Assembly (NCBI RefSeq): GCF_040807025.1
Contig: NC_090953.1
Location: forward strand, 23,172,997 to 23,236,996
Source of the DNA: Struthio camelus
Lineage: Eukaryota; Chordata; Aves; Struthioniformes; Struthionidae
Length of the DNA stretch: 64,000 bases
Reading direction: 5' to 3'
The translations under genes were made by a program, and so were the position numbers. Shown in pieces: positions 2,377 to 54,170 of this stretch. Below the pieces are notes generated by a model. That model was not told where the DNA came from. It saw only the letters and a program-made list of their open reading frames with translations, and did no database searches. Position 1 is the stretch's first letter; every line of letters begins with the position of its first letter.

Positions 2377-5300
2377 ATGTCGGCCCCGCAGCACCGGCGT
2401 ACGGCGCTGGAGCGCGTCGAGAAGTTTCTCTCCGAGACCTACTTCACCGACTGCAACCTGCGGGGCAGGTGGGCGCCGCGGCGGCGGCGGCGGGGGCGGG
2501 GTCCGTCGGGCCCGCGGGCCGCCCCCCAGCTCCCTCCTCCCCCCCTCCCTCGGGGCGGGCGTTGCTAGGAGACGCGGGCGGCGCCGCGGCCCGGCGCTGC
2601 CGCCCTGAGGTGCTGCCGACCGGGGGCGCCGCGGCCCGGAGCGACCCGGCCCCGATCCCGACCCCGGCGCCGTCCCCGACCCCGACCCCGGCCCCGATCC
2701 CGACCCCGACCCCAGCCCCGATCCTGACCCCAGCCCCGACCTCGACCCCGGCCCCGATCCCGACCCCGGCCCCCACCCCGGCCCTGGCCCCGATCCCGAC
2801 CCCGGCGCCGGCCCCCACCCCGGCCCCAGCCCCGATCCCGGCCCCGATCCCGACCCCGACCCCAGCCCCGACCTCGACCCCGGCGCCGTCCCCCATCCCC
2901 ACCCCGGCCCCGATCCCGACCCCGGCCCCGATCCCGACCCCGGCGCCGGCCCCCACCCCGGCCCCAGCCCCGATCCCGGCCCCGATCCCGACCCCGACCC
3001 CAGCCCCGACCTCGACCCCGGCGCCGTCCCCCATCCCCACCCCGGCCCCGATCCCGACCCCGGCCCCGATCCCGACCCCGGCGCCGGCCCCCATCCCGGC
3101 CCCGATACCGACCCCAGCTCCGGCCCCGGCCCCAGCCCCCATCCCGATCCCGACCCCGGCGCCGGCCCCGCGGGCGCAGCGCAGCTCCTCACCCCGCTCA
3201 GTGCCGTGCTCGCTGCCCTTGGCCGCAGGCTCTTCGGCGCCAGCTGCCCCGCCGCGTCCGTCTCCTGCTTCCAGAGCCGCCGGCGGCTGCCGTACGCTGA
3301 GGCCGTGGGGCAGCAGTTCAGACCGGCGAGGGTCGGAGACGCCTTCGGGCCCACGTGAGTACCGGCTCGGGGCGGCGGGTGCCCTCTCCGTGGCCTCGCG
3401 CCTGGGCAGCGACCAGCGGGCGGGATGGTGCTTCGCCCCCTTTGCGTGTTTGACTAGGAACTGATCGCCCAGAAAAACTACCTCAGCCTGCGTCCTGCCT
3501 CAGACGGGACAGCGTTCAGAGAGGAGCCCTAGCCTGGGTTAGGGTTTGTGCGAGCAGGGGGTTTTGAGCCCCGTTTCAGGGCAGATTTTCCTGGAACGCC
3601 GTGCAGGAAGCCGAGGGCAGCTGTCGTCAGACAGGGATCCCCCACTGAGCTTCACCGGGTGGCAAAAAGCGACGGTCTCTGTTTCGGACAATGGGGTGGG
3701 GCTGGGTGAGGGTTTGTGAAGAGCCCGGTTTGTCGGCCGTTCCTGATGAGGGCTCCTGTTAGCGGAGTCGTAGTCGTTATTCTGACATTTAGAGCTGCGT
3801 GGGACCTACAGGCTTTGCCGGGGCTGGGAGTATGTTTGGGGTTTTCCCTAGCAGCGGTCAAAGACCTGGTTTTATTGACTGTTTCTCTTGGGTCCAGGAA
3901 CGGCCAGTTTGGGGCCAGTTATATGGCCTGCCTTCTGAGAGCCTGTCTGTTCCCAGGGGTAATTCAAGTCTGGGCACTCTCGGATTTTGTTGTCTTCTGC
4001 ACCACTGTGTGAGATTGCCACCCTGCAGACTATGCCGTGTCTGCGAGTGTAGATTAAAGCAGGTCTGTTGGACACATAGCATTGTTACAGCTGTATCACA
4101 ATGAAATCTCATGCGTGGTCCTCGCTGTGCTCCGAGGACTGGTTTCTGGTCGTCTTCCAGGTAAAGATCTTGACAGTGGGGTGAACTTGCTGCATGCTCT
4201 CTTCCAGGTGGGAGACCTGCTGGTTTAAAGTGGAGCTGAGCATCCCTCAGGCATGGGCAGGGCAGGAGGTGCACTTTGTCTGGGAGAGCGATGGCGAAGG
4301 CATGGTGTGGCGAGATGCTCAGCCTGTCCAGGTAAAGAGACACGGGCGAGGTGTGTGCCAGTTGTGCCAGGCACTCTGCTAGCTGCAGAGCCCTTTCTGT
4401 AGCACTGCGTCTTTCTTACCCTTCCCTAATGGGGCAGTGGAAACTCCTTTCCATTTGTTACCCACTCTTCAGAGTAATACCTGCAAGTGTTGGGGGGAAG
4501 CGATGTAGCAACTGCACTTAACAGGAGAGAATCTAGACAGTGTGATCATGAGGAAAAACATAAGAAGGATATTTACTTGTAAGACTGTTAAGCTTCGAGA
4601 AGAAGTCTCTGAGACAATAGGAGAACGGTCTTTGAATACCTGAAAAGCTGCTGTGCAGGGAAGGGCAATGTTTGTGAAGAGGCCGCTATGTAGCGTGGGA
4701 GGGAGGGTAACACTAGCGGTTTGCATGCTGTGTTGGTGGACAGGCAGAACAAGGTGCAGGCACTCTGAGGGTGTGCGGACTATTTCCAAAGAGCCTGGGA
4801 ACTCAGCCCAGAAGAGCAAGCAAGGTAGTGGGTTTGAGTCTGTTTTCTAGAGGTTGCCACCTCCACAGGAGTTAAAAATTCAGGTCTGCAAACCAGTAAC
4901 AGCTAAGTATCTCTTGCTTAGGCATTAGCAAATCTGTCTTGCAGGGCCCACAGGCAAGCACTGGGCCTGAGATGTAAATCTCCACCACTGTCAAGAACAG
5001 TGGGACAGACTCCTGTTGGGACTAGAACAGGTCAAAATGAGTCCTGCTTTGGGGTAGTGGAACAGCCCGGGTGACCCTTTGTAGTCCCTTCCTGTTTTCT
5101 TCTCTGTGGTGGTGTCCCCAGGCCTGGAATGTCCTCAGGGTTCATGCTACTGCTGAGTAGTAGCAGTTTCTGTGCCAGTTGTTGTTGTGGGAAGCTTTGT
5201 CCCAAGATGTGTGGGACCAGGCCCCTTCCATCCAGCAGGGTTTTGTGCTGTCTTGTCCTGCCCGTCCAGCAGCTGTGGAGCCCACTGTCCAAGAACTGTG

Positions 5301-20223: not shown

Positions 20224-23200
20224 TCACACTGCAGGGGCTGCGCCTGAAAGATGAGAAGGGAAACGAGTGAGATGGCAGCACATGCCGCAGGGTCTGGTCC
20301 TGCCCCGAGACGCAGCATCCCGCCTCCCCCGGCCCCTTGCCATCCCCTCAGCCACCCAGCACACAAACTGCCCGCCCCGTGCATTTGCACCATGGGGAAC
20401 AAGCCTCACCTGAGCCCCTCCGTGCAGACACCCGGCCTCTTTTCGCTTTTACAGGAGCCTCAGGCTCAGATGAGGCCGGAGCAGCTGCAGCTAGCTTCCT
20501 CCTGCGGGCACGGCCCTTCCCTGCCTCATCAGCCAGTACCTTCTCCACCTCCTCGGTTGGCTTTGGGGGGCTCCCCCCGGCCCTGGCACGCCGTTTCGAG
20601 GCACGTGTGGTGACCTGGGTGGAAGTCAGAGGTGGTGCTCAGCTATAGCATTGCGTACGAGTAAGGCCAGGGCCTACCCTTGAGCAGCACTGAACTGGTC
20701 CAGGACAGGCTCCTTTCCTATTCATAAGAAACGCCCTAGGCAAGAGAGCTTTATCCGGTTCGAGCATGGCACGAGGAACAGGAGAGCCTCTGACCCAGGA
20801 GCGGACACATCAACCACAACGCTTTGTACCTTGGGGGTCACAGCCTCAGGATCTGCCTTCAGCTGGGTGCGCTTCTTGCGGGACTTCCCTCCTGCGTGAA
20901 GGGAGACAACCAGGTTAGACGGGGTCAGCAGGACATGGGGCAGGCCCTGCTCTCTGTCCTCCCCCTCACCCCCAACAGATCCCCCCCAAGACACAGCGAT
21001 CGCCACGCTCTCTCACGCTCACAGCCCAAAAGAGAGCACCACCCTCCTGCTCCAAGCCTGGCAGGCCCAGAAGGCGACATTGCTGCAGGTCTGGAAAACC
21101 ATCCTGCAAGTGCAGACAGGTGTGCTGGAAGGTAGGAAGCCGGGGCATAGCTGGCTCCATTCCCCAGGGCCATCACGCTGCCACAGGGCTGTCAGGGCCC
21201 CAGGATCCTGCAGGAAGCACCCCCAGAGAAGAGGGCTGGGACCTTGCTCCCCCGGCTGTGGGCTGCTTTGTTCCTCCCTTTGCCTCCGTGCCTGCACAGC
21301 AAGCACGGGGCTTCTCCCTTCCCAGCCCTCCCACAGCAAGAGCAGGTCCCACAGGGAGGGGAGAGGACACTCACCTTTGGGAGCTGCGGGACCAGGCTCT
21401 CCCTGCAAGGAAGGGCGACAGAGCATTGACTGGAACGTGATCAACCCACAGGCACTAGCGCCACCACAACAGAGCTTTATCCTACCCACCTGCACACTTT
21501 TTAGAGGGGGAGAAGTGAACGGGAGACAACATCACCTACCCACAGATATAGCATGGGCTGGGGGAGATGGGCCTGGGGCTCCAGGAACAGCCACACTGCC
21601 TCACCCAAGGCCCTGTTGCCCCACTGTTCTTTGTTCACAAACTGCTTTCCTTCCGGGCCCTCCTCACCCTGCCCCTTGCAGGGCTGCCCAGCTTGGTTTG
21701 GAGGGGTGGGTGGGGAAAGCAGGGTTGAGGTTCAGGCTAGGATGCATTTAAGGACCATTCCCAAAGAGGCACAGTCCCAGCTGGTACCCCAGGAGGGGCA
21801 GAGGCCACCTCTCGCAGCCCTGCTAGCTCCTCCAGCACCAGGGAGGACACAGAGTCTGGGCACAGAGACTCGTGCATCACTTGGACTACTGGCTCACAAG
21901 AAACTCTGGGGAAGAGCCCCACAGCGAACCCAGGACCGGCCCGAGCACGGCATGGGGAACAGGAGAGCCTCTAGACCCAGGAGCGGACACATCAACCACA
22001 AAGCTTTGTACCTCGGGGGTCACAGCCTCGGGATCTGCCTTCAGCTGGGCGCGCTTCTTGCGGGACTTCCCTCCTGCGTGAGGGGAGACAACCAGGTTAG
22101 ACGAGGTCAGCAGGACATAGGGCAGGCCCTGCTCTCTGTCCTCCCCCATGCCAGCTAGCAGAGCACCTCAGGGGAGAGGTTGTAAGGAGGTGACCTTTGG
22201 GGGACACCACCCTGACTGATGTGTGAACTGAGCCAAGATGGTTGAGGCAGGCAACCCTGCGTTCACATGGAGGACGGACTCAGGGGGCTTCTTCCCCCCT
22301 CTCCCCGCCCAACAGATCCCACCCAAAACACAGCGATCGCCACGCTCTCTCACGCTCATAGCCCAAAGGAGAGCGCCACCCTCCGGCTCCGAGCCTGGCA
22401 GGCACAGAAGGGGACTTCCCTTCCTAGCCCTCCCGGAGCAAAAGCAGGTCCCACAGGGAGGGGAGAGGACACTCACCTTTGGGAGCCATGGGACCAGGCT
22501 CTCCCTGCAAGGAAGGCGACAGAGCATTGACTGGAAGGTGATCAACCCACAGGCACTAGCGCCACCGCAAGAGAGCTTACCTGCAGATGCTCTCAGCGGG
22601 GCCGCTGAGATCCATCATCTCCACCCCACAGCCAAGCTGGCATTAGGCAAACAGCCACATTGCCCGGGGAACTGGAGGAGCTGGGCTTGCTCTGCCTGTC
22701 TGCACCCCCCCACGTCAAGGGGGGACTCTCCCGTCAGCCCACGATCGTTCTGCAGGGCATCATCACACCGTCTCCCCTTGGGAACGTGGCTCAAAAAGGA
22801 GGAACAGGGCTGCCAGACCACCCTGCAACAGCAGAGCCCTCGCCTCCTGCAGCCAGCCCCTCTGGCCTGGAGGGCATGCCATCCCTCGGGGAGCGGGGGG
22901 GGATCAGCCGCTGCATGGTGGGTCCCTGTCACCCCACCTGCACATCCAGGGATCACATCAGTCTGTTGGATGGGGAGATCTCCAGGGATAGGGCCACAAC
23001 GTGAGGCTCGGTGACCCCAGGAAGCAGAGCGTGAGAAAGAGAAAATGGACTGGTGCCCCCTAGGAGGAGCGGTGGGGGAGACCCAGCCCCAGGCCCTAGA
23101 CAGCAACCTTGGCCTCATACCTGGAACCAGATGGTCCTGCCCATGTTGTCACGCAGAGAGCGCATGCCAGGCACAGAGTAACACTGCAGCCAGTTCTTGA

Positions 23201-26200
23201 AAGCAGTAGAGTCACCTGAGTGCTCCGGGTCATAGCCCTTTCCTCCTGGGAAGGGAGAGAAGTGAAAGGACTGAAATAATTAGAGTTGGAGAGGAAGCAA
23301 GAGCCAGTTTGGCAGAGCTCTCCAGCCAGACCCCAGGCCAGGGGAGGTGCTGGGCCACAGCTCAGCAAGCATGCACCACCGCGGGCTTCTCTTGCAGCAG
23401 GGCTCCAGGGATCTGCCTTCTACCATGACCATGATGTTGGGGTACCCCCTCCTCCCAACCTTCTGCTGCTGGCAACACAGGAGGGGCTGGTCCGATGCCC
23501 AGGTCTCCCCCGACTGCCCAGCTCCCCCGGCTCCCTGTCCTGCAGCCTCACCCAATTCGACCACCTCCATGGGCACCGTGTGGCACAGCTCCAGGAGATC
23601 CGGGTTCTCCCGCTTCAGCTTCAGCTTCTTGCTCAGCGTCAGGGAAGGATCCTGCAAGGGCAGATGAAGGAAGGAGAGTCACCTGCCACCTACACTGGCC
23701 TCATCTGGGTCTCTCCTCCCGAACCCCAGCTACATATCCCATCATAGCCTGCCCTCCTGAGGACAGGCTGCCAAATCCTCGACCTGCTGCCTCGCCGCAG
23801 CACGCGCCAGCTCTGATCTCACCCCACAGGTGCCCTAACACTGGGTCAGCCCCAGCCCCTGCACGAGCGGGGTAACTGTGGGATGCAGCCTGCTCCACAG
23901 GAAACCAGCCTTTGTCTGAAGCTTGCGGGCCCCGTTGTAGGCTTCAAACTGAGTATTAGCGTGTTCCCCACAGCTACAAAAACAGGAAACGGGGAGCACG
24001 CAGGAGTACTAGCAGTTTGCAAAAATAGTCCTCGGGTCGTGTGAGTTTTTTCAGGCTCCTTAAAAATAGCCACCCCCTCTCCCCCGGGGCCTTGAGATCA
24101 GAGTAGCCCGACAGCAACTCAGTCCTGGGCTCTACTGCAGCCTTCCCTAGAGATTTTTGAGCTTGCGAGGTGTTTGTTTTCCTCGTCCCTTCCTCTTCAC
24201 CCTTTCACCTCTCGGCCTCAAATATACCCAGAGATTTCCTGAAGGCAGAACACGTGCATGGGCGCAGCTGAGCGCAAACGCAGCAGTGAGGCATGTGCCC
24301 TGGGAGCTGTCATAGCTCATCAGCCCAGCCACGTGCAAGCGAGCTCCGTAAGCGTGATGTTACAGCAGAACTGCTGCACGCGTTTGCCGCTTCATTGGAG
24401 GGGCAGACGTGCTCAGACATGGGTGTTTACGGCAAACGACAGCAACAGGCTCGATGGGAAAGATCCCATGCAGCAAGCGTTACGGTTGCAACGGGGAAAG
24501 TCCTTCCTGCCAGGCTGGAAAACCAGACTGTGGCTGCTGGACAGCAACCACAGCGAGGCTTTGCTCCTAGGTGTACCCTGAGCGCTGTGGCAACCTGTCC
24601 ACAGGGTTCTCAGAGCAGTAAACACCTCCTGATGCGGTACGGGGAGAGGCAGCGGGCTGTGCGAGCTCGCCAGGGGCCCTGCGACAGTGTTCTACCCCAT
24701 CAGAGCGAGGAACCAAACATGAACCGAAACCGGCCTGAACCCTGGGCTGGAACAAGTCTCTGAAGCAGAGCTGAACCAGAGGCAGAGCTTGGCACCCAGC
24801 TAAGCCCAGACGCCGAGCAGGGCACTCGGCTCAGCCCAGACTGGGATCCAGAAGCAAACCGAACCACTTCCATCACTGCTGAGCTGAAACCTGAACCAAT
24901 AACGTTTCTCAGCTCAGTCCTGCTCCCTGCACAGAAGGTGAGAGAGGCTCCTGGGGCCTGGGACAGCTGGTGAGAAGTCCTGCAGGGCTACAAGCAAACA
25001 CGTCCCTGAAATCACATCTTTCTGGAAACCTGTCTCCTCCTGGCCCAAGGCAAATCAACCAATACACAGGCAGGAGCGCGGCCTGGCTCAAGGTGAGCTG
25101 GAGAGACACTGCCAGCACTTGTTCCTGCGCAAGGTTTCCCACGGGAAGAGGGCTGAACCAGGCAGAGAGCCCCAAGGGCTGCAAATCCCCCATGCACTCT
25201 CTTAACAAAAGTCATCATGAGAAGTCAGCTGGGCCCTTAAATCACAGCTCCGGAACAGTCCTCCCTCAGGAAACTTAGGGTGAAAAATCCCATAGAAGCA
25301 GCAGTTGCACTGGGAGCTGGAAGGGAAAAGGCAAGGCCTGCGATCTTGTGGAGCGATGCTGTACAAGAAAGCACCCGCACAGTCTCCCCTTTCCTCACCT
25401 GCTCTCGATGCTTCAGGGCCTCCAGCACAGTCCGAGCCTTTTCAAAAGGAGGGATCTTCAACCTAGGAGAGCCCAGCTGTTACACGCGAGCCCCAGCTCT
25501 CTTTCGCGAGGCAGCCGAGCACTAGCCCGTGACTGCCAGCAGAGGAGCCTCAGCTGGCTCAGCTGAGGAGCCACCAAGCTCTGCCAAACACCGGCAGACC
25601 AAACGTGGCCTCTGGGCAGCGCAAGATTAAAGAGGCCTCAAGGCTTTTCAAGTGATGCTGTAGCCACCGAAGCCTGAGCAGTAACCTGGCCCAAGGGTTG
25701 ATGCAGTCAGCGCTTACAGCAAGCGGGTTCTCTGATCTCGCAGAGAGGCCGAGCGGGGCAGGCAAAGGCCCTGGTCTTCGGCCTTGGAAGACGCTGGACC
25801 CAGCGTGGTGGGAGCACAGAGGAATGCTGGTACCTGCACTGTGTGACCCGGCTGGCCACAGGGGGCCTGGGGAGCTGCCCCAGGCAGAGCTGGGGGTCCC
25901 AAGGACACCGAAGGTTGGGGGGGGAGGGGGAGGAAGGGAAGGGGAGTAGCAGAGCGGGAGCCGAGCAGCTCAGGGCTGTTATCAACGCCTAGGGCCGCGG
26001 CTCGCTCACAAAGGCTCGGGGGACCTCAGATAGCTAGTCGGAGCTACAGGCAGGAACCGCGGGGTTTTTCCTCCCTCTGCTTTCTCCTGCGGACATCGGT
26101 CACCCGCGGACCGGAGGCGGCGCCGCGTCCCCTCGGCAGGACAAGGGGACGGGGCAAGCTGGCGGCCGCGGAGGAGGACCGGCTGGCTCGACCCTCTCCT

Positions 26201-27382
26201 TTCCCGGGCGCTGGGGCCAGCTCACCTGTACAGGATCTCGGCCCGGAGGTAATTGCCGATGCCGTTGAAATACTTCTGGTTCAGGAGGGCCTCGCAGATG
26301 GGCTTGTCAAAAGCTTTGTCAGCCAGGTTCCTCAGCACGTTCTCCCTGCAAGAGAGCGCGGCGCTGGGCTGGGCTGGGCGAGAGCCGCCGCGGCCCAGCA
26401 GGCCCGGCCTGGGGGGCGGCCAGGGAGCCAGGCCCCCGGGGTGCGGGGGGGGGGGAGCGCCCGGGGGGGGGGGGAGGCCAGGCCCCTGGGGTGGGGGGGA
26501 GGTCCCGGGGGGGGGGGGAGGCCAGGCCCCCGGGGTGGGGGGGGAGCCCCTGCGGGCGGGGGGGGGAGGCCAGGCCCCTGGGGTGGGGGGGGAGCCCCTG
26601 GGGGCGGGGGGGGAGGCCAGGCCCCGGGGGGGGGGGTCCAATCTCGGGGAGGGGGGGGAGACCCGGCCCGGGGGGGGGGCCAGGCCCCCGGGGGGGGTGG
26701 GGAGGCCCGGCCCCGGGGGGGGGGTCCAATAACGGGGAGGGGGGGGAGGGAGGCCCGGCCCCCGGGGGAGTGGTCCAATCCCGGGGGGGGGGAGGCCCGG
26801 CCCCCGGGGGGGTGGTCCAATCCCGGGGGGGGTGGGGAGGCCCGGCCCCCGGGGGGGGTCCAATCCCGGGGAGGTGGGGAGGCCCGGCCCCCGGGGGGGG
26901 TCCAATCCCGGGGGGTGTGGGGAGGCCCGGCCCCCGGGGGGGGCTCACCTGAAGGCCGGGTACTCGCCGAGCACGCAGGGCCCGCGGCCCGGCTGCCAGG
27001 CGCCGCCCAGCCGCCAGCGGCCGAAGCGGCGGGCGTCGACGAAGCAGAGGGCGCGCGGCGGGCGCTCGCGCGTCAGGAAGCGGAGGTGCGCGTGGCGCGG
27101 GATGCCGCCGCCGCCGCCGCCGCCCGCCGCGCACAGCCGCAACGAGCCCGACATGCCGAAGCGCAAGACGAGCGCCAGCGGCTCCCCGGCGCCCAGCGGC
27201 GCCAGCGTCAGCCGCACCTCCTTGCCCCGCGCCGCCGCCGTGATGCGGTAGGCCGGGCTGGCGAAGGGCACGGCCGGCCCCTTGCCCACGGCCGAGCGCT
27301 CCACGCCGCCCGCGAACACCAGCCCGCCGCACACGGCGTTCACGTAGCGCTCGGCCAGCCGCAGCTCCGGGCCCTCCGGCAT
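20224..27382 (-). CDS. NEIL1: endonuclease VIII-like 1 DNA glycosylase, 11 coding exons
   Basis: Bifunctional DNA glycosylase/AP lyase that starts base-excision repair of oxidised pyrimidines in the nucleus. Exons in transcript order: 27382-26949, 26345-26226, 25462-25399, 23651-23552, 23245-23121, 22505-22478, 22073-22012, 21402-21375, 20891-20830, 20614-20410, 20243-20224. All phases join, giving 415 residues (human about 390). It begins MPEGPEL, the Fpg/Nei start in which Pro2 is the catalytic nucleophile and Glu3 the acid; Lys54 lies in ARGKEVR. The helix-two-turn-helix segment follows (FNGIGNYLRAEIL, near residue 171). Lys242, the residue recoded by A-to-I editing in human, is present as AAG. 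Exons 8-9 are a tandem copy of exons 6-7, adding 30 residues in frame with a second KSRKKR basic patch. The C-terminal tail is basic. Use of both duplicated exons in mRNA is inferred. Confidence 0.92.
20764..22585. repeat. tandem duplication within NEIL1 carrying two exons
   Basis: Two diverged copies about 1.1-1.2 kb apart: roughly 20764-21480 and 21949-22585. They match over the intron flanks as well as the exons. Each copy contains a 62-bp exon (20830-20891; 22012-22073) and a 28-bp exon (21375-21402; 22478-22505) with intact splice sites. Differences include scattered substitutions and copy-specific segments (about 21085-21290 in one, about 22141-22300 in the other), so the duplication is not brand new. 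Fresh assembly stutter is unlikely given the divergence. Confidence 0.9.
26425..26942. repeat. G-rich minisatellite filling NEIL1 intron 1
   Basis: Variable-length G-runs alternate with GAGGCCAGGCCC- and GGTCCAATCCCG-type units on the + strand (C-rich in the NEIL1 transcript). Units of roughly 35-60 bp repeat about a dozen times and occupy nearly the whole first intron (26346-26948). Long proline- or glycine-rich open frames on both strands are repeat artefacts. Confidence 0.9.
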
Positions 27383-31139: not shown

Positions 31140-31186
31140 GGCGCCGCCGTCCGCCTCCGCCACCCGGAACCGCTCCCGGGCTGCGC

Positions 31187-32420
31187 GTGCGTGCGCGTGC
31201 GCGTGCGTGTGAACGTGTGCGTGAGTGTGCGTGTGTGCGTGTGCGTGCGTGTGTGCGTGTGCGTGAGTGTGCGTGTGCGCGTGTGCGTGCGTATGTGCGT
31301 ATGAGTGTGTGTGTGTGCGTATGTGTGTGTGTGCGAGCGTGAGTGTGCGCGTGTGTGTGTGTGCGCGTGTGTGTGTGTGTGTGAGCGTGCGTGTGTGAGC
31401 GTGTGTGCAAGCGTGAGTGTGCATATGTGAGTGTGTGTGCGTGTGTGTGTGTGAGTGTGTGTGCACGTATGTGTGTGTGTCTGTGTGAGCGTGTGTGTGT
31501 GAGCGTGTGTGCAAGCGTGAGTGTGCATATGTGAGTGTGTGTGCGTGTGCGTGAGTGTGTGTATGAGTGTGTGTGCGCATATGTGTGAGCGTGTGTATGT
31601 GAGTGTGTGCGTGTGTGCGCGCGTGTGTATGAGTGTGTGAGTGCGCGTATGTGTGTGAGTGCGTGTGTGAGTGTGTGTGCAAGCGTGAGTGTGCATATGT
31701 GAGTGTGTGTGCGTGTGTGTGAGTGTGTGTATGAGTGTGTGTGTGCCTGTATGAGCGTGCGTGTGTGAGTGTGTGTATGTGAGTGCGCGCGTGTGTGCGC
31801 GCGTGTGTATGAGTGTGTGAGTGCGCGTATGTGTGTGAGTGCGTGAGTGTGTGTGTGTGAGTCTATGTGAGAGTGTGTGAGTGTGCACATGCGTGTGCAT
31901 GAGTGCGTGTGTGAGTGTGCACGTGTGTGTGTGCGTGTTTGTGCGCGCGCGTATGTGTGTGTGCATATGTGTGTGCATGTGTGTGCGTGTGAGTGCGTGA
32001 GAGTATGTGGGGTGTATGACTGTGCATGTGCATGCATGTGTGTGTGTATGCCTGTGTGTGTGTGCACGTGTGTGAGTGTGCATGTGAGTGCGTGTGTGAG
32101 TGCATGAGTGTATGTACGTGCACGTGCGTGTGCATGAGTGCGTGTGGCGTGCATGTGTGTGAGTGTGCATGTGTGTGAGTGCATGTGTGTGAGTGTATGC
32201 CTACGTGTGCATGTGCATGCGTGTGAGCGTGAGCCTGTATGTGAGAATAGGTGTGTGTGAGTGCGTGCGCATGCATGTGTGTGAGCGTGTGTGTGAGAGT
32301 GAGAGTGCTTGTGTGGAGCGGGGGTGTTCTGCCTGGGTGTGCGGAGGGGTGCTGTGTGAGTGTGGGGTGTGTGGGGAGTGGTGTAGGGGGTGTGTGTGAG
32401 TGTGTGTGTGTCTGCATGCA
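31187..32420. repeat. long interrupted GT/CA microsatellite upstream of COMMD4
   Basis: About 1.2 kb made almost entirely of GT steps interrupted by GC, GA and CAT (units such as GTGTGTGAGC and GTGCATGTGTGTG). Internal blocks repeat at larger scale: a block containing GTGTGCAAGCGTGAGTGTGC occurs near 31405, 31506 and 31678. Alternating purine-pyrimidine sequence of this kind can adopt Z-DNA. Frames of up to 801 residues (His/Thr-rich) across it are not genes. Confidence 0.95.
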
Positions 32421-33235
32421 GGACAGTGCATGTGTGTGATGGGGGATGTGGGGGGTGAGGGTGTAGGGGTGTGGGGGGGGTGTAGGACAGTGCGTGTGTG
32501 TGATGGGGGATGGGGGTGAGGGTGTAGGGGTGTGTGGGGGGGGTGTAGGACAGTGCATGTGTGTGATGGGGGGTGTGGGGGGTGAGGGTGTAGGGGTGTG
32601 TGTGTGTGTCTGTGCATGCAGGACAGTGCATGTGTGTGATGGGGGTGAGGGTGAGGGTGTAGGTGTGTGGGGGGGTGTAGGACAGTGCATGTGTGTGATG
32701 GGTGTGGGGGGTGAGGGTGTAGGGGGGTGTGGGGGGGTGTAGGACAGTGCATGTGTGTGATGGGGGATGGAGGTGAGGGTGTAGGGGTGTGTGTGTGTCT
32801 GTGCATGCAGGACAGTGCATGTGTGTGATGGGGGATGGGGGTGAGGGTGTAGGGGTGTGGGGGGGGTGTAGGACAGTGCATGTGTGTGATGGGGGTGGGG
32901 GGGGTGAGGGTGTAGGGGTGTGGGGGGGGTGTAGGACAGTGCATGTGTGTGATGGGGGTGAGGGTGAGGGTGTAGGTGTGTGGGGGGGGTGTAGGACAGT
33001 GCATGTGTGTGATGGGTGTGGGGGGTGAGGGTGTAGGGGTGTGGGGGGGGTGTAGGACAGTGCATGTGTGTGATGGGGGTGGGGGGGTGAGGGTGTAGGG
33101 GTGTGGGGGGGGTGTAGGACAGTGCATGTGTGTGATGGGGGTGAGGGTGAGGGTGTAGGTGTGTGGGGGGGGTGTAGGACAGTGCATGTGTGTGATGGGG
33201 GGTGTGGGGGAGGTGAAGGTGTAGGGGTGTGTGTG
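32405..33235. repeat. G/T-rich minisatellite, about 13 copies of a 60-73 bp unit
   Basis: The core AGGACAGTGCATGTGTGTG recurs near 32421, 32486, 32547, 32621, 32679, 32740, 32810, 32871, 32932, 32992, 33054, 33115 and 33176, separated by GGGGGTGAGGGTGTAGGGGT-type spacers. The array adjoins the GT microsatellite and shares its GT-rich core, so it probably grew from it. Confidence 0.93.
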
Positions 33236-39300: not shown

Positions 39301-42300
39301 CCCACTCACACTTCTGGGTCCAGAAGTAAGATGAGGATGTTTCATGTCAGCTGCCTCCTGCCTTGCTCAGGCTGAGTGAGGAATCACCACATCAGGATCA
39401 ATGCTCCAGTCTCCCACGTTCAGGAAGGGAGACAGTTACAGTATTTGGCAGTATTGTTTGACATCACTCTAGTCCCTGCCTTCACAGGGAGGGCTACCTT
39501 CCCGAGACTTTAAAATATCCATGCCTCTACACTTCCAGCAGCCCAGTCAGGGCAGCTATGAGGAGACTCTCTCCAGGTCTCCTAGTGTAGGAGAACCTCA
39601 CCCTCCCCATCTTTGCAGCATTACCAATAGGCTGCTGAGTGCCTTATACAGCACCAAGTTAAATAAGTGAGACTTCATTAAAGAGCTCTAGAGAGGGGTA
39701 GTCCTCTCCCATACCTGAGCTGGGCAATAGTGAAGTTCTTCACATGGTATAGGACGCTGAGTGACTGGATCACCTATAGGAAGATGAGACAACAGCTCAT
39801 ACCCTACCTCTGCTTTCAGTGGAGGTGATATTATTTTGCAGAAAGCCGAGTAGTCAGCCTGTGTCCTTTTGCCCATAGGCAAAGTTCCCAGCATCATTCT
39901 TTGGAAAGAGCCACCAGCATTCCCTGCTATACCCTCTACTGCCAGCTGCCTGTTCTCCAATGTTACATGCTTTCCTTTAGGAGGCCTCAAAGAAAAAAGC
40001 ATCCCTCTGACCAGAGGAAAGGTCACTAGTGAGACAGACAGGTGCTGTCCCTCCTCGCAGAAGCCATTCAGTGCTAGCCTCCCTCCACCCCATCTCACTC
40101 CAGTTCAGCATGGAGACCCCCAGTGGGCAGGAGCATCCAGTCTCAGCATGCAGACCAAGACCTGCCGTACCTCACTGATCAGTCTGTCCAGAGGGTCTGT
40201 CCTGCCCATTCCACCAGATGCAACAGAGCCAAGTCGGAGAGCAATGAGAGAGATGGACAACTTCTCGGGGTCCAGGTTCTCTAGACTGAAGCCTACAAGA
40301 TTTAAAAAGACTTATACCCTTACCTGTTCTTCCACCTTGCCTGGGAGATACTAGCCAGGCTTGAGTTTATCATCTTTAGCACACAATGAAAGCTAAAGCC
40401 AGCAGGTCAACTAACGCCAGCTCAAGACCTAATCCTTTTGTGTTGAGAAGGGTTTTGGATGTACAGCCACCTCTCAGAGCAGAAGCAGGTTAAGGAGAAG
40501 TCAGAGTTTAGCAGAAGTAGTGGGCCATGTATTACTGCACAGTCTCCAGCATCCTTTGTACTGAAGAGTTTTACATGGGTCGGAGTGGAAAGATTAAGGG
40601 TAGGTGAAGACTGAGATCCAAGCTGGTCAGGTTTCAGCTTTGAAGGACCTGCAGGAACAGATGATGGCAGCTGTCCTGATGCAGTAGGAGCTCCATGGCT
40701 TACCACTTGACTGGATGGACTGCACCTCCAATTGCCAGCTGAAGGGGTCTCTTCCTCTGCTCACTTCTGTGACAATTGTACGGATGAGGTGAGAGCTTGT
40801 GGGAGCAGGACTGTCTCCCCGGAACAGAGCCTCCCCTTGCACGATGACAGAGCCATTCCTAGGAAGCACACAAGCTGACAAAGCCTTGTCCAAATGCACA
40901 TGCTTTGCACAGGCCTAGCCAGGGAAGCTCTGCTCCCATTTGGGAGCAGGTTACAAGGCATCAGCCCAGCCTTAACACCCCACCCAGGGAGGTGTTAGGT
41001 GCAAGGCTCCTGAGAAGCTTTGTCTGGAGCCGAGGACACTTTTGACCAGGAATCCCCTGGGAAGATGATCCTGGGGAGGGAGCATAGCCCCTCAAGAGCT
41101 GTTTGTTTTCTCTGGAGCATTTTGATGGAGAAAGGCCTTCCTCCAACCCAAACCCACCCATCTCCATCTGTTACCCCAGAGCAGAGCTGTCTACTCACAT
41201 AAACTCAAGGATATTTGCTTGGAGGAAGTTCTCATAGGTGGATAGCATTCCGTTTAGCTAGAAGAAATATATTGTAGTTGAGAAGCTTTTGCAAGCTCCC
41301 CAGTATGAATGTGGCACATACCAGGAGCTGTGCAATAAAGATAGAGCTGGAAAGGGAAGTCAGCTTGGCTTGCCCTTGGGTAGCAGGCTAGCTGCCCCAG
41401 TAGAACCAAGGCCTCTAAGATTAGGACAGCTGAGCTAGCCTATCCAGGGCACCAGACAGCCTGAGGCAAGCCTAGGAAAGCAGGCAAGAGGAAACACCTC
41501 CACCACCAAGACAGTATGTGATGGCCCCATGGGCCCACTAGCTACCAAGGTTAGGCGAGTCCAGTCCAATCTCAGACTTGGCATCCAGGTTTAGCTCCAG
41601 TGCTGTAGCACCAGGACTTACCAAACCAAAGGGGAAAGGGTGTCTCCACCACTCACAGTAGGGGATTACAAAGAGCAGCTGAGGACAGTGGCTTTTCAGC
41701 TACTTGGCTCAGTCCCATTCACCCAGAAGTAGAAACACCTCCACAGACAGGGTAAAGTCCACTAGCCAGCTCTGGAGGAGTCAGTCTGCACTTACCATTA
41801 GCCTCACTTCCTTCTCAAGCTTCTTGTAGCTCTCTGAAGACTTGCTGCTCAGAGCCTCGCTGTAAGCAATGCCTGTGAGTCTGAACTGCAAGGGCAACAC
41901 ATGCACATGTGCAGGAGAGAGGAGTCCAGGGGCTTGGGACACAGGGAGCTTTGCCTCAGGGGAGCCCAGCTTGCTTGCAGCCATGGACTCGGTTGGGGGT
42001 GCAGCTGCAGTGAAGCCCTTCCCTGCAGGTGTGGGTCTGGTGGCTGCAGAGAGGTCCTCTCCAGCTATGAAGGGGGGCTGTGAGGTAACAACCAAGCGAC
42101 TGGACACAGAGTGAGTGACAGGCATGAATCCTGTTGGTACAGTCATGGTCTGAGAGGTTAGCAGAGACCCAGGGCCATATACAGCTCTGGTGGAAGTTGA
42201 CACATAGGAGAGAGATGAGAAGGCTGTCTTGCCAGTCTGGAATGCAGTGCTGGCCTCAGGCTGATGCCCTGGAGTGGGGTCTTTCAAAGTGGGAGAAGAG

Positions 42301-44906
42301 GCAGAGCTCTGAATAGCACAGGTGGGCTCTGGAGGTCCTGATGGAACAGCTGCATCTGAAGTCACCCTAGGCTTCCCACTTGTGGCTCCTTCTGCCACAG
42401 CTGCCTCTGCAGGCAGCACACTTCTCTCTGCCACCTCTGTGGCCACACGTGCAGCCTGGTATTGCCCTGGAGTCCCAGCAGTGGGCCCATCCTCATATGC
42501 TATTGCAAAGGAGGACATGGGGAAGAGCTTGGGGTGCAGAGAAGGCCTCCAGGTAGGTTGACTCAGGGGGGCACCATCTGTCACACCTGCAGCTTCCAGA
42601 GAAGAAGCCACTGCAGCAGCTCCACCCTTGCAGGATGTTTTGGACACTCTAGGCTCTGAGACAGTGTCAAGAGCTGCCAAGCTCACTCCAGCCACAGTAT
42701 CACCTGCAGTTCTGGTGTCTCTTGTCAGAGCAGAGGAAGGAGGACTGCCACTAGATGTAGACAGAGTCTGCTTTACAGAGTGGGAAGACAGATTGCCTTG
42801 TTTCTCTGAGGTGACAGCAGGTCCCCTGAACTCCTCTGCAGCAGGGAAGGGAGCCAGCGTTTGCTGGTGCTTGACATCGTGAGTAGCTGATGCAGCACTG
42901 GGAGGTGATGCAGAGACAGCAGCCAGAAGGCTGGACCCATTTTTCAGTACCTTGGCCAGGACTGTGTCCGCCAGCAGAGCAGCTTCTCCATGCAGGAAGC
43001 TATCAGCAGGATGTGTGCCCCAGGCCCTCTTAGGCTTCGCAGCTGAGGGTGCCCCCATGGTGCCAGGATGTATTTCAGCTAAGCTGGATGTCCTTTCTGA
43101 TAGCAGAGTTGGAAGCACCCCTGGAAGCGGTACCAGCCTAGAAGCAGCAGTGGGGTCTTTGCCCATACCAAGGTCAGGCAGGCTGGTTGAATGGCTGGAG
43201 GAGTGCTGGCCAGGGCTTGGTGTCACCACCTCCTTCTGCCTATTATGACTCCAGTGGCTCATCAGCAGGGATCCTGTTGTGGCTTCAGCAACCACAGCTT
43301 CATGCTGGACATCAGAGAAGCTGCTGGCTGTAGATCGGTCCAGCAAAGGCATACTCCTGGGAGCCTGAACCACAGTCACAGCTCTGGCCTGAGAGGGCAC
43401 GTTGTGGGCTGTGACTCTAGCAGGAGGCTTAGAGCTCACCACCAGGCTGTGGTCAGCTCTGCAAAGCGTGGTCCCACAGTCAGAGGATGCCCCAGCTGAG
43501 GCCAGTTTGAACAAGGCCCTTGTCACATCTGGGCCAGCAGAAATCTCAGGGTCTAGCAGACTAGCAGCAGGCCAGGCTGACTGGCCAGCTGGCTTCAGGG
43601 ACAGCAGCAAACCAAGTCTAGACTGGTCTGTTGTGGTATGGCTCAGGGAAGGAGTACCTGCCAGCATCTCTGCTGAACCCACACCTGATGGGGCATCGGA
43701 TGGGACATGAGCCTCCCTAGCAGCAACTTCTTCAGGCAAGGCCAGTCGCGTAGGCACCACATCCAGCAATTCAGTCCCTGCATCCACAGCAGGCTTCTCC
43801 TCAGTCCCTGCAGAGGCACCAGAGGGGGTTGCAGCCAGGCAGGGAGCCCGCAGCAGTGCCAGGGTCATGGGTGACAGCGGTGCTGGGGAGGAGGCAGCAG
43901 GCACCCAGGGCTGCCTGTCCATAGCAGCTGTGGAGCTCTCCACCAGAGCAGGTTTCTGGTCAGGCATCCTCACAGTCCGAAGAGTGCCCCAAGATCTCCT
44001 CCCTTGACTCCGCATCTTGGAGATGAGCTGTGCCATGCCTGTTGGAGGGAGGCTGGGGCCACCCTTGCTGCTCAGGAGAGGGGAAGACCCTGGTCCTGCC
44101 CTCATAGGCTCTGCAGCTGGACCAAGCTCAGTGGCCACCTGCCCACAGCCACGGGCTGAAGCCATGGCCACTGCAGGCAGACGTGTAGCTTCATGTAGGC
44201 CTGCTCCCTCACCAGGGAGGCTTTCCAAAGCCACATCATGCCTCAAGGCAGAGCCAGGAGGTGAGAAGCCAGCAGTTGGGGTAGCCCCTGCAGCAGCACG
44301 GAGGAGCTGAGCTGACACAGTAGGCGCTTGGGAGAGCATCACAGCAATGGCTGCAGCACCAGACCCCTGTGCTTCCCCTGCCAGGGATCCGGGCTGTGGC
44401 ACCAATAGGGTCTGAGGTGTTGAGGGAACAGCAGTATCTTGTGTCAGTGCCCCCAGGCTCAGTCTCTCAGCATCAGCACTGTGGTACAAGTCTCCTTCAA
44501 CTCCTGGGAAGGTGCCAGGTGCCACCAGTGCCCTCTCAGATTGTTGCATTGCGGGGGAGGTATGTGGATCCTGATATGCTGCCACCAAGTCATCACTCAC
44601 CCTGCTCTGGGAGGGTTTTAAGCCTGGCTGAGCATGAGAAAGAGGCTGGGAGGCAGGAAAGGCCTGAGACAGGGCAGCCAGAGACCCCACGCTGTATGGG
44701 AGCACAGTAGCAGACAGACAGATAGCCAGCACCAGGAGAGCTTTGCATCTCCACCCACTGGTAGCCTCAGCCACATTTGCAGCAGGACACAGAGTTGTGC
44801 ATGCATCCCCTTCTCTCTCACTCCAAAGTGCCATCTTTGGCCAAAGGCTAGCAGCATCAGCAGGGTTTGGTGGTCCTGCACCTCGGCTCTGCTTGGGGGA
44901 TCCCAT
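36383..44906 (-). CDS. TRCG1: SEA-domain mucin-like membrane protein, likely TRCG1 (taste receptor cell gene 1) orthologue
   Basis: Predicted single-pass surface mucin. Exons: 44906-41796, 41257-41199, 40858-40704, 40292-40171, 39773-39715, 39096-38960, 38886-38762, 38250-38192, 37787-37633, 37187-37078, 36427-36383; all phases join, about 1378 residues. Exon 1 carries a hydrophobic segment near residues 55-78 (late signal or anchor), then about 950 Ser/Thr/Pro/Ala-rich residues. Three SEA modules follow, each centred on a 59-bp exon. SEA1 contains NGSVIV, matching the GSxxV autocleavage motif; SEA2 has RGDLEI and SEA3 PGSLIC there. The transmembrane segment is in exon 10 (EYGVVIIVMCGLGI onward); the tail is about 14 residues. 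The symbol rests on position between COMMD4 and C15orf39, as for mouse Trcg1, plus SEA content. Human has no clear counterpart that I recall. An IMPG-like relative is the alternative. The last exon is least certain. Confidence 0.7.
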
Positions 44907-45570
44907 GGCAAGAGCTCAGCTGTGAAGAGTTGCAGCAGAAGCCTTAGGTTGGGTCCTCCCACCTCAAGGTGCACCAGCCTGCCCCCAGAGCACCCACAAG
45001 CCCAGCCAGTGCTGAGCTGCAGCCCCAACAGCCCAGCACACCCCAAAGGGCCTGGCCACAGCAGTGGCCAGAGCCAGGGAAAACAAGATAGACCAACACC
45101 AGGACCTCTGCAGGCTCCAGCTGCATTAAATGATTTTTCTGTCTCAGGAGCAATTTGTGCCAAGTCTCAGCATCAGGTGTTCACTTTCCCAAGAGCCTGG
45201 GAAGCTCCTGTTTCAGGAGACCTGTCACCAGTCTCCTAGTCAGACATTACCTCACCTGCCACCTGGAGCATCCAGCCTCACGGGGAAAAGCAAGAGCTGC
45301 CACCCCTTCAGCCAGCCAGTAACCCCTTCTTCTCCTTCCAGCCTCTGCCACCAGGCTGGGGGCAGCTTCCCCCACAGCTTTCTGCTGCACAGCCTCTCCT
45401 GCAGCCTGCTGATGTCCTTCTGTCCTCACACCAAACACACACACCAATGCACACCTCACAGCCCTTCTCCACCCAAACCCCTCCAGCACAGCACAAAACA
45501 CACCAGCCCAAACCCACCACCAAGTCAGCATGCTCCTACCTGGCAGCACCCAGGCAGAGAAGAGAGCACA
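44907..45570 (-). other. SEA-mucin gene 5' end: non-coding exon and intron 1
   Basis: The coding exon is preceded by a pyrimidine tract and acceptor (exon start at about 44919, 13 bp before the ATG). Upstream, a donor CCAG|GTAGGA near 45541 would end a short non-coding first exon starting about 30 bp below the TATA-like box. An alternative small frame starting at 45549 or 45531 looks like a signal peptide (MLTWWWVWAGVFCAVL) but lacks a convincing in-frame junction to the main exon. Confidence 0.45.
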
Positions 45571-49016: not shown

Positions 49017-50692
49017 CTGCAAGAAATAAAGTTATTGGTGGTCATCTCGAGCAGCAGCAAAGAGGAGAAGGGCGAGGAGCGAACAGAGAGGGGCGGTCGG
49101 AGCTAACGCCGTTGAGATGAGACGCTCGGGAGCGACCGTCGGCCTCGCTCCAGCACCCCGTGCGCACGTCGTGGCGCCTCCAGCGTGCTTCCCAAGCCTC
49201 CCGCGCTGCAGGACTTCTTGAGCCGCTGCTGCTAGGACTTCTGCCTCCAACAGCAGCCCCTCCACAGCCCCCGCGCTCCTCCGGCTCCCCCATCAACGCC
49301 CAGCTCAAGGCTTTTCCCCCACAACCCAGGGGAAGAGGCTGAATGTTCTGCCCTGGGGCGCGCGGGGGATCCCTCAGCCGCTTCCCACTCGGCACAGCCC
49401 ATCAGCTGGAGCACGTGGTGCTCCCCAGCCCAAGAGCCCAGTACCGGGAGGAAGATGAGGAAGATCCGGGGGCCATGGCCACCTCGGCAGAGACAGGCTG
49501 TCCGGTGTCTGCTGAGCGGGAGGGACTTGTTTGTGACTTGGGTACAGCCCCAGCCAGACGTTGCGCTCAGGACTGTGGCCTCCTGGGGAAGGCGGCCGGG
49601 GAGGAGAGCCCGGTTCCCCCAGCTGCACCGTGCTGCACCGTGCAGGATGGACCCGCAGCAGCAAAGGCCCCTCCACATCGGCAAGCGTTTCCTGACACCG
49701 CTCAGGGGAGCTGCGAATTCCTGGTATGAGTTTTACCGCTGCCAATGCGCAAGACCACAAAAGCTCCTCTGCCAAGAAGTTATGCAACCTCCCCCCGTCT
49801 GCCAGCATCTGGGAGGCAGATGCAGTCAGAGCTTTCCTGGAATAGGTACAGCGAGAAATCTGCAAGCATGCCTGGGAACCGCTGCCACTACCTCCAGGCT
49901 GGATCCGCTCTCAACCGAGACGGCAGCTTTCCAAAATTTAATTTTCCAGAAATTTAGCAGGTCTCGTGGTTTTGGAGCGCCTGCCCTGGGACACCCGGCC
50001 GGGGCTCTGTCCGTCACAGCAGGCAGTGCCCTTTCTGGTAGGTCAGGGAAGCCCTCAGGAGATGTAGGCACCTGGGAGATCACCTAAAGCCTTGGGGGCT
50101 GGTTTTTGCAGCGTCCCTGCCATGTGCAGGCCGGCCTTGGTTGAAAAAAAGAAACAACCAAAAAAACCCTCAAAATCTTTGTTCTGTGGTAAATCGCCCT
50201 CCCTTGCCTTCCATCACTGTCAGGGCTGCAATATGTCAAGAGCAGCAGGCTCCAGCCCAGGCCAGCGGCACCGGTGGCCTAATGCATCCAGGAAATTTCA
50301 CAATTCAGGAACTGCAAGTTCAAATCATTTCCACAGAAAGGCAGAAAGAGGTTACAAAGACCTGATTGTGACACCGAGTGAGTCAGACGGGGACCGTGGC
50401 AGCGGGACCTCTCGGAAAGGAAACACGTCTACAGACTAATTCACCTTGGTCAGCTAACAAGAAGCAGCAGGGAAGAGAACTCAGGGAAGGAAGAACAAAG
50501 TGCTGGATTTATTTCATTACTAATTCCTTGCATAGAGTATCAGTGCTATTTTTAGTGTCTCTGGTCGTTAGCTCCAGACGGGAAATGCCGGTTTCTGGCA
50601 GTGGGTAGCTGCCTCCTGAGGGGCAGTAGCCTCCCCGTGGCAGCAAGATCTCAGGGGTGGGGAAGGGCTTGGGGAGAAGCTGAGCTACCTAC
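49017..50692 (-). other. probable last intron of the C15orf39 homologue
   Basis: Lies between the donor TTG|GTAGGT at 50692 and the candidate acceptors. No conserved coding sequence, RNA gene or repeat family was recognised. Open frames on both strands are short and show no family resemblance. Confidence 0.4.
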
Positions 50693-53600
50693 CAAGCTGT
50701 TGCTTGACAGAGTCATGCCAGTGGAGGTTCAGCAGGTCTGGGTAGATGTCGGGGAGCTGCTTCAGAGCCAGGAGCTTCAGCATGCGGGAAGTGCAGCTCT
50801 TGAGCTCCAGGTCCCTCAAAAGCTTCTCCTCCGAGAGGGTGGTCGGGCGCAACTCCACCTTATGCTCCTGCAACACTTGGTCGACAGAGGCCCCAGGGAG
50901 CTTGGGGAAGAGCTTCTCCTTCACCACATGGATGGGAATGAAGATGGCACCTGCCCGAACCACATGGGGGAAGGGGCACTTGCGAGTGAACATGAAGGTC
51001 TCCAGCTGAGACAGGAGCTTGTTGAGGAGAGCAGCCACATCCTTGAAAGCCAGCCAGATCTCCTTGCCTTTGGTGGGCTTCTGGGGCTCAGAGAGCCTGG
51101 AACCGTTCTTGGGTTTGGGAGGAGATTTGGGCATCTCTTTGAGCTCCTCCTCAGGCTCTGCCCTCTTCAGCCACTCCCGGAGCAGCTCTGGGGAGGACCC
51201 AGACACAGAACACGAAATAACATTGCAGAGAGAGGCGTGCAAGGCAGTAAAGTACTGGCTGGCGGAGGTCTGCTGGCCAGGGGATTCACAGTGGCTGGGC
51301 AGCGAGACGTTGTCCTCTCCTGGCGCGCGGGGGGCTTCTGGCGCACCGGGCAGCAGGGGCTTTGAAATGTCAGGGAGCTTCAGGTTCAGGCAAGTCACCT
51401 GAAGAACGGAGGTGCTGGGCTGGGGGTTGGCGTGGAGCGCAGGTGGCACGGGGGGGCTGCGGGGCTGCGGTGACACATGCGGACTTTGCGGCGCGGGGAC
51501 GCTGTCAGATGGAGCCACTGCCGGTGGACTGGGCTGCATGGCCTGAGGTCTGGCAGCCTGGCGAGGGGGCACGGCGCCAGGCGGGAGGGATTTCAAGATC
51601 TTGTATTTTTTGAACATGAAGGTGGCTGAGCTCTGGAAATTGCTCTTGTCCCTGGACCCAACCTCTATCAACAACGGCAATGTCTGAGCCTTGGCTCCCT
51701 CTCCCGTCTCCAGCTTCCTTGGTGGCTCCTCTTTCTCTCCGGCTGCATCTTCTCCTTTAGATGTCCCCTTCATGTGGCCAGCAGGGCCTTGGGTTTCTCC
51801 GGGTTTCACCAGTCTCTTTTTCAAGCTAAGATCCAACACAACCTCGTCGGGGGCTGGCTCCCTGCCCTCTGCGCTGCCGGGGCCGCTCAGGCTGCCGTCC
51901 TGAGGTTCCGGATCACTTGTTGCCGCCCGGTCACGGGGTAGAAGCCTTGGTTTGTGACTCTTGGGGGCCCGTTTGCAACAGCCGCCCCCTTCGCCAGCCA
52001 TCGACTTGCAGCTGTGAACCACGCTGTCCCCTGCTTGTAACGCCTGGCTGGCCTCCTTCCGAGCAGGCAGTGCACCGGACATCTCCGAGATATCTTTGAC
52101 CGCAGCTGGCTCTGACAGAGACCTAAAAGAGTCCTTGCTTCCCAAGCTGTTCCCCACGTTTTGGAGCGGAGTATCTACCTTTGGATGGTCCTTTGAGAAG
52201 GGAACCTCGGCTGAGCCTTCGGACCCTTCCAGATAGTCTCGGTAAGGCGCCAAGCTGAAGACGTTGTTGATAACTGGCATGGGTGGGGACGAAGGAGAAA
52301 TCTCGCCACTTTGTAGGTCTTTCAGCCTACCCTCTGGAGATGCAACCTGAGAAGAGGAAACCAGCTCTTTGGCTGTGTCTTCGACCTTGGAGGGCTCTCC
52401 CTTCCCTAAATGCTGGTGGGAGACCGGGCTGTCAGCTGTAAAGACTGGAGCTGCTGGGGGGGCTTCGAGAGCCCCTCTGGTGCCATGGGTGCTTTCCCTG
52501 AGGGTCAGGCTTGTCCTCCTCTTCTCCAGGTAGGGGGGGTCCTGCTCCCGCGCGGTGGGTTTTGCTGCCGGGCAGAAGTCCAAGCTGTAGCCCAGTTCCC
52601 CTTTGGGAAACGTTTCTAAGAGTCTATCCGAGCCCCTGGGCAGCTTGTCCAGGGCGCAGACAGGTTGGAAAGCGCTATTCTGGCTCACCACCGCCTTCCT
52701 GCGGGAGCTTTCCAGGGGTGCCTGAGGCCCGCGGGGAGCAGCGGCTCTGCCGTCCCCGGGCCGTTCGCGAGCCGGCTCCGCTCCGGCGAAGGAGGCGCTG
52801 TACAAGGCGGCGTCAGGGGGACCGAAGGCAAAGCCGGGGTTCGGCTGCAGGAAGTCCACCTGGTACGCGGGTGGCCGCTGCTGGGGCTCGGCGTCTCTCG
52901 GCAGCGCGGCAGCCGGGGAGGGCGGCGAGGCCACCGCGCTGGAGCCCGCCGCCCGAGGCACGTAGCTCTCCAAAGGGCCCACGAAGTAGCTTCTTGGGGC
53001 TTGAGGCTTAAGGTAAGTGCTAGGAAAAGGCTGAGGTTCCCCGCTCCCCGGGAAGCCGAATCCTTTGTAGCTGCCAGGCACGGACGAGAGGGCGTTGGCC
53101 TGCTTCTCCAGGGCGGCAGCCTCCGGATGGTACACCAGGGCCGGCTTGTGGACGGGCAGCGGGTAGGGAGCGTGCGGGTAGCAGGCTGGCGGTCCCTCCC
53201 GAAACGCCGGGGCCGGGGAGAGGGGCAGCGGGCTGGCGGCGGGCGCGCGGACCTTGGACCACGCGTCCTGGCTCAGGCCGCCGCCGGCGAGCTCGGGGCC
53301 CTTCCTGGGGTCGCGCGCGGCCGGGTAGCTGGCCTCCAGGAACGGCGGGCAGGCGGCGGGCCCGTATTGCTCCAAGGCGGCGGCGTAGTACGGGGGGAAG
53401 CCGAGAGGGGAGCCCACCCGCGCGTCCTTGCCGGGCGGCGCCAGGCCGGGGGGCAGCGGCAGGAGGCCGGGCTCCGGCGGGGGGCCCGTCCGGGGCCCGG
53501 CGGGGCCGCAGCGCCGCTGCCGGTGGGGCAGAGGGTGGCTGGCCGGGGCCGGGGCAGCGAGGGCCCACTCCGCCTCCCCGGGCCGCGTCCGCAGGCCCTC

Positions 53601-54170
53601 GCCCGGCGTCGCCAGCCGCAGCGGCGCCCCGGCCTCCACGTAGCAGACGGGCGCCCCGTACACGGGCTTGGGCACGGCCAGGGTGCCGCAGCCCGCCTGA
53701 GCGACGGCCACCGGCTGCTTGACCGCGAAGGGGCGGCCCGGGGCCGGCGGGTCCTGCGGGCCCAGCTGGCTGGCCCACTTCTCCCGCGCCATCAGCAGCT
53801 CCCGCACCAGGCTGTCCTTGCCCTTCTCGGCGCTGGGCGGCCGCGGCCGGGCCCCCAGGCTCTCCGCCTGGCGCCGGTAGAGGAGGCAGTTCACGAGCGC
53901 GCCCTCGGCCCGCAGGGGCTGGCCGCCGGCGTAGCGCAGGTAGGCGGCCGCCGGGCCCCAGCGCGCCAGCACCTCGGGGCCATCGTGGCCGGGCAGCGGG
54001 CAGGCGAAGTAGGAGCCCTTGTAGTTGAAATGGGTTTCCGAGGCGGGATTCGGCGCAGGGCTGGCTTTGCAGAGGCCGGCGGCCAGGCCCAGGCCCGCCT
54101 CGGGCTCCAGCCGAGGTAACTTGTTGAAAACCACGGGGTCCAGGGCCTCCAGGTGCCGTTTCCCGGCCAT
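50693..54170 (-). CDS. C15orf39: C15orf39 homologue, giant coding exon (C-terminus unresolved)
   Basis: Uncharacterised conserved vertebrate protein. One exon (54230-50693) encodes about 1159 residues, starting MAGKRHLEALDPVVFNKLPR, which I recognise as the family N-terminus; the human protein is about 1047 residues. The centre is long, Pro/Ala/Gly-rich and probably disordered. At about residue 778 is VVLDLSLKKR, resembling the PxDLS core of CtBP-binding proteins and followed by basic residues (nuclear role inferred). The C-terminal 130 residues are compact and conserved-looking (KEIWLAFKDVAALLNKLLSQ through LNLHWHDSVKQQLG). An acceptor lies at 54231, so the ATG exon has about 60 bp of 5'UTR. 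The exon ends in phase 1 at a GTAGGT donor; if unspliced, translation stops at 50685. Its position beyond COMMD4 matches human synteny. Confidence 0.88.

Follow-up and report, generated by a model that had tools for sequence, protein, structure and literature searches.

The minus strand of the 64,000-nt stretch of DNA analysed here (the window) carries an intact gene for the DNA-repair glycosylase NEIL1 (Fpg/Nei H2TH family), inside which a pair of small exons, 28 bp and 62 bp long, is present twice in tandem on the same strand. The questions raised by this locus are whether the doubling is a genuine feature of the genome, how it came about, and what it may do to the NEIL1 protein.

An exon pair present twice in NEIL1

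The gene opens with an ATG at 27382, closes with a TGA at 20224 and comprises eleven coding exons separated by ten introns, all of the GT...AG type; when all exons are used, the joined product has 415 residues. Exon 1 (26949..27382) begins with the initiation codon and is followed by exon 2 (26226..26345), exon 3 (25399..25462), exon 4 (23552..23651) and exon 5 (23121..23245), which ends with ...TIWFQ in phase 0. Behind the four duplicated exons, exon 10 (20410..20614) encodes the distal tail (VTTRASKRRARAGG...), and the last coding stretch (20224..20243) contains the stop codon. The product starts with MPEGPE, the catalytic end, and scores above the Pfam cut-offs for Fapy_DNA_glyco (PF01149; E 7.6e-12, 46.3 bits, cut-off 25.5) and for the NEIL1-specific zincless finger Neil1-DNA_bind (PF09292; E 1.6e-21, 76.2 bits, cut-off 25). 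The H2TH domain (PF06831; E 5.2e-07, 30.0 bits) stays under its cut-off of 34.7, and the respective region aligns closely with human NEIL1. In a phmmer search against PDB, the best NEIL1 chain was matched with E 4.8e-134 over query residues 1-387, the alignment being poor past about residue 302.

Upstream of NEIL1 the same strand carries a COMM domain exon, and past the 3' end of the gene alpha-mannosidase (GH38) exons are found on the plus strand; judging by the human gene order, we take these neighbours to be COMMD4 and MAN2C1. Tandem repeats of the GTGTGC type and of 60/183 bp, about 2 kb in all, lie inside the COMM-domain gene or immediately upstream of it (31185-33233), and intron 1 of NEIL1 harbours a G/C-rich minisatellite with a period of about 42-44 bp and about 11 copies (26444-26943). 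Elsewhere in the window, a 526-bp GC-rich tandem array (2645-3170; periods 18, 60, 78 and 138) contains long open frames in several frames, likely as an effect of its composition. An open frame of 1,044 codons on the minus strand (41781-44915) has no Pfam match at E 0.001, and another of 1,161 codons (50685-54170) matches DUF5525 with E 8.9e-100 and presumably represents the C15orf39 gene. As for the NEIL1 coding sequence itself, the residue in exon 5 (23245-23121) that matches the RNA-edited Lys242 of the human protein still bears the number 242 and is encoded by AAG, a codon that A-to-I editing at its second position would likewise turn into one for Arg. The human codon is given as AAA in a review (PMC12320393).

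The first pair consists of exons A28 (22477..22504; GEPGPMAPK plus one nucleotide) and A62 (22012..22073; GGKSRKKRAQLKADPEAVTPE), the second of B28 (21375..21402; GEPGPAAPK plus one nucleotide) and B62 (20830..20891; GGKSRKKRTQLKADPEAVTPK), and the two pairs are translated as GEPGPMAPKGGKSRKKRAQLKADPEAVTPE and GEPGPAAPKGGKSRKKRTQLKADPEAVTPK, respectively. Each of the four exons is bordered by an AG acceptor and a GT donor, and the intron flanks match between the copies. Since 28 and 62 nt add up to 90 and each pair is entered and left in phase 0, every pair contributes exactly 30 residues without a change of frame, just as the initial annotation of this DNA had proposed. The coordinates it had given for A62, B28 and B62 are likewise exact, with only A28, placed at 22478-22505, having been set one base too high.

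The similarity of the copies extends into the introns. Unit A (21478..22578, minus strand) comprises 1,101 bp from the first base of a direct repeat to the junction, and unit B (20752..21477, minus strand) has kept 726 bp. By blastn the two share segments of 212 nt (93.9% identity), 196 nt (89.3%) and 131 nt (88.6%), in the same order and with slight overlaps, which is far beyond chance. Unit B is devoid of counterparts of about 22286-22148 (around 139 bp) and 21935-21481 (around 455 bp) of unit A, and has around 205 bp extra, at 21283-21079, that are absent from A. When these three segments were compared with the whole window, they matched only themselves (E 0.001), and searches with both units and with the 62-bp and 28-bp exons against the window at the same threshold revealed no third copy of the pair. 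The exon pair of NEIL1 is a true genomic duplication, real and well preserved, as had been suggested.

Origin and age of the duplication

A 12-bp direct repeat, present in three copies, marks the borders of the units; all copies are read here on the minus strand. The sequence AAGCTCTCTTGC occurs at the start of unit A (22567..22578) and again at the end of unit B (20740..20751), and a version with two changes, AAGCTCTGTTGT, sits at the new junction (21466..21477). The junction copy has the same left flank, GGATA (5 nt), as the end copy, and to the right 38 of 40 nt are common to it and the start copy. The longest run common to the outer flanks is 12 nt, a length reached by none of 400 random pairs of 81-bp stretches drawn from the window. 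Three repeat copies with flanks shared in this manner are the footprint expected of recombination or slippage between short direct repeats. We infer from this anatomy, which is itself directly observed, that a 1,101-bp segment of NEIL1 containing the 28-bp and 62-bp exons and their introns gave rise to a tandem copy, probably by unequal recombination or replication slippage between two 12-bp direct repeats, the AAGCTCTCTTGC microhomology. Unit B would later have shed most of its tail, the simplest route being a deletion between GG dinucleotides and the alternative an insertion in A.

The aligned introns of the copies differ at 27 of 395 positions when each base is used once (Jukes-Cantor distance 0.072, bootstrap range 0.047-0.100), and at 16 of 283 when the middle block is left aside. 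Substitution rates in birds are 1.0-3.0e-9 per site per year, and a rough clock with these rates puts the duplication at about 12-36 million years, or 10-29 million years without the middle block; gene conversion could lower the divergence and make the event look younger. On this reckoning the duplication is moderately old. We also considered the possibility that two haplotypes were joined head to tail during assembly, but such an artefact is extremely improbable and was rejected, given the divergence of about 7% (measured over the 395 alignable intron positions), the large indels of about 139, 205 and 455 bp and the orderly microhomology in three copies.

Tests for selection on the copies and their expected splicing

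The exon copies differ at six of 90 positions: three of the changes fall in one Met/Ala codon, one makes an Ala/Thr and one a Glu/Lys difference, and one is silent. The initial annotation had reasoned that copies which have diverged and yet both remain open may be under selection, but this argument does not hold up. The exons are no less divergent than the introns (6/90 versus 27/395; Fisher p=1.0, or 0.80 without the middle block), the NG86 estimates (dN 0.068, dS 0.076) give a dN/dS of about 0.9, and the frame survived six random changes in 86% of 20,000 simulations. Similarly, that none of eight pairs of essential splice-site bases was lost has a chance of about 0.57 without selection, and the indels (none in the exons versus three in the non-overlapping aligned introns) are too few to weigh. 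Neutral drift fits the exon copies, and weak constraint is also possible.

With regard to splicing, the acceptors of the A and B copies are nearly identical, and the donors of the two 28-bp exons are identical and, by a scale built on general base frequencies at donor sites, score 12.32, which is near the maximum of 12.61. The donors of the 62-bp exons are by the same scale the weakest of the ten in NEIL1 (2.80 and 3.68 versus 7.56-12.32 for the other eight). Because the splice signals hardly differ between the copies, both pairs are likely included, and the normal transcript would most probably encode a NEIL1 of 415 residues; this is the simplest and most likely forecast from the splice signals, some leaky skipping being possible. 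Indeed, the weak 62-bp donors make skipping plausible, and the 28-bp exon is also small. Besides the 415-residue product of both pairs, the combinations that stay in frame are one 28-bp with one 62-bp exon (385 residues, three ways tried) and no pair at all (355 residues), whereas the loss of A28 alone or A62 alone breaks the frame. The hallmark of an ordered translation of both pairs would be the peptide ADPEAVTPEGEPGPAAPK: it crosses the A62-B28 junction and could arise in no other way.

The doubled tail segment and what it may mean

Human NEIL1 (Endonuclease 8-like 1; PDB 5ITX, 5ITR, 1TDH and others) provides the closest frame of comparison. The match to it is strong after WFQ through GxPGPxAPKGxKSRKK and poor in the tail beyond this segment. 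The corresponding human stretch, GDPGPLAPKGRKSRKKKSKATQLSPEDRVED (residues 283-313 with Met = 1), is present a single time, and the matching segment is likewise found once in the PDB NEIL1 chains among the alignments listed (three chains from one search, one from another), which agrees with the earlier claim that the region is single-copy in human. Its assignment to the basic disordered tail is supported as well. Where human NEIL1 has one segment with KKK, however, there are two with KKR here, 30 residues apart; both copies read KSRKKR, so that each retains two of the three human lysines. If translated, the doubling would extend the tail from 104 to 134 residues, raise its net charge from +15 to +20 and make the flexible linker that joins the catalytic core to the distal tail 30 residues longer. 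Such a patch could, as the initial annotation suggested, affect nuclear localisation or partner binding or give rise to isoforms.

Acetylation of human NEIL1 has been described at K296, K297 and K298, with the chromatin complexes of a 3KR mutant being less stable (PMC12320393). With Met counted as 1, the KKK of the human protein occupies 297-299 and position 296 holds an Arg, so the numbering in that review presumably starts at Pro 1, making its K296-298 equivalent to residues 297-299. A putative RPA32C-binding motif has been located within residues 305-331 of human NEIL1, inside the common interaction domain 290-390 (PMC11387677), and the duplicated stretch thus reaches into the start of that region. 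In viral contigs, 312 stretches encode a relative. The 80 loci kept are 33-42% identical and end at or before query residue 118, seven residues at most past the beginning of the doubled segment at query residue 112, and they were left aside.

In our view the best explanation, to which we would assign a probability of roughly 60%, is an old duplication of 1,101 bp between direct repeats, with both pairs spliced into a 415-residue NEIL1 and with a neutral or slight effect. With the extra 30 residues the GGKSRKKR patch, the counterpart of the acetylated KKK cluster of the human protein, would come a second time, adding positive charge and acetylatable lysines, which a disordered tail probably tolerates. 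It is possible, if less probable, that cells make both 415-residue and 385-residue forms (the latter with pair A, pair B or A28+B62) and so tune the number of lysine patches, as these combinations are in frame, both copies of the 62-bp exon have weak donors, and exon duplication has often been linked to mutually exclusive splicing (PMC9013439). No obvious switch is offered, however, by splice sites that scarcely differ between the copies, and a statement in PMC9741552 has it that mutually exclusive splicing of duplicated exons is not common. The starting anatomy resembles that of genes with mutually exclusive duplicated exons, such as DSCAM1 (named in PMC9013439), but here both copies together are in frame and nothing in the sequence points to exclusion.

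Rather unlikely is a routine skipping of one pair, which would leave an ordinary 385-residue NEIL1 and a second pair reduced to neutral debris: the weak 62-bp donors and the lack of any sign of selection on the exon copies would suit it, but splice signals and both frames are all intact, although chance could have kept them so. The notion that the doubled patch has been favoured, by making the anchoring to chromatin or the binding of partners stronger or more lasting, draws on the match of the segment to the acetylation cluster reported to stabilize chromatin complexes (PMC12320393) and on its leading into the partner-binding tail (PMC11387677); with a dN/dS of about 0.9, an exon divergence equal to that of the introns and one genome only, we consider it decidedly unlikely. 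We also think it unlikely that a lineage-specific NEIL1, with both pairs constitutively spliced, has a serial arrangement of two acetylatable lysine patches and a tether longer by 30 residues that alter its chromatin dwell time or the reach of its partner-binding tail.

In the literature searched (mainly open-access, by titles and the starts of abstracts) we found no report of an exon duplication in NEIL1, though a predicted protein record may exist; nor is one mentioned in the 12 of 29 places covered in PMC9001079, whose alignments were screened with Gblocks. Tandem-duplicated exons are present in about 10% of animal genes according to a 2002 study cited in PMC9013439, and the doubling in NEIL1 is a new case of this common kind of event. 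It shares with the others the adjacent exon copies with flanking intron within one gene, but its unit is a pair of exons, 28 and 62 nt long, each of which breaks the frame alone while together they are frame-neutral. The duplication shows that two individually frame-breaking exons can be copied together without harm. Should the second pair be skipped or neutral, this is an ordinary exon duplication; if both pairs are translated, it would be a natural experiment on the NEIL1 tail, with the chromatin-anchoring patch present twice, and a comparison of single-pair and double-pair forms would show how the number of patches and the length of the tether affect repair.
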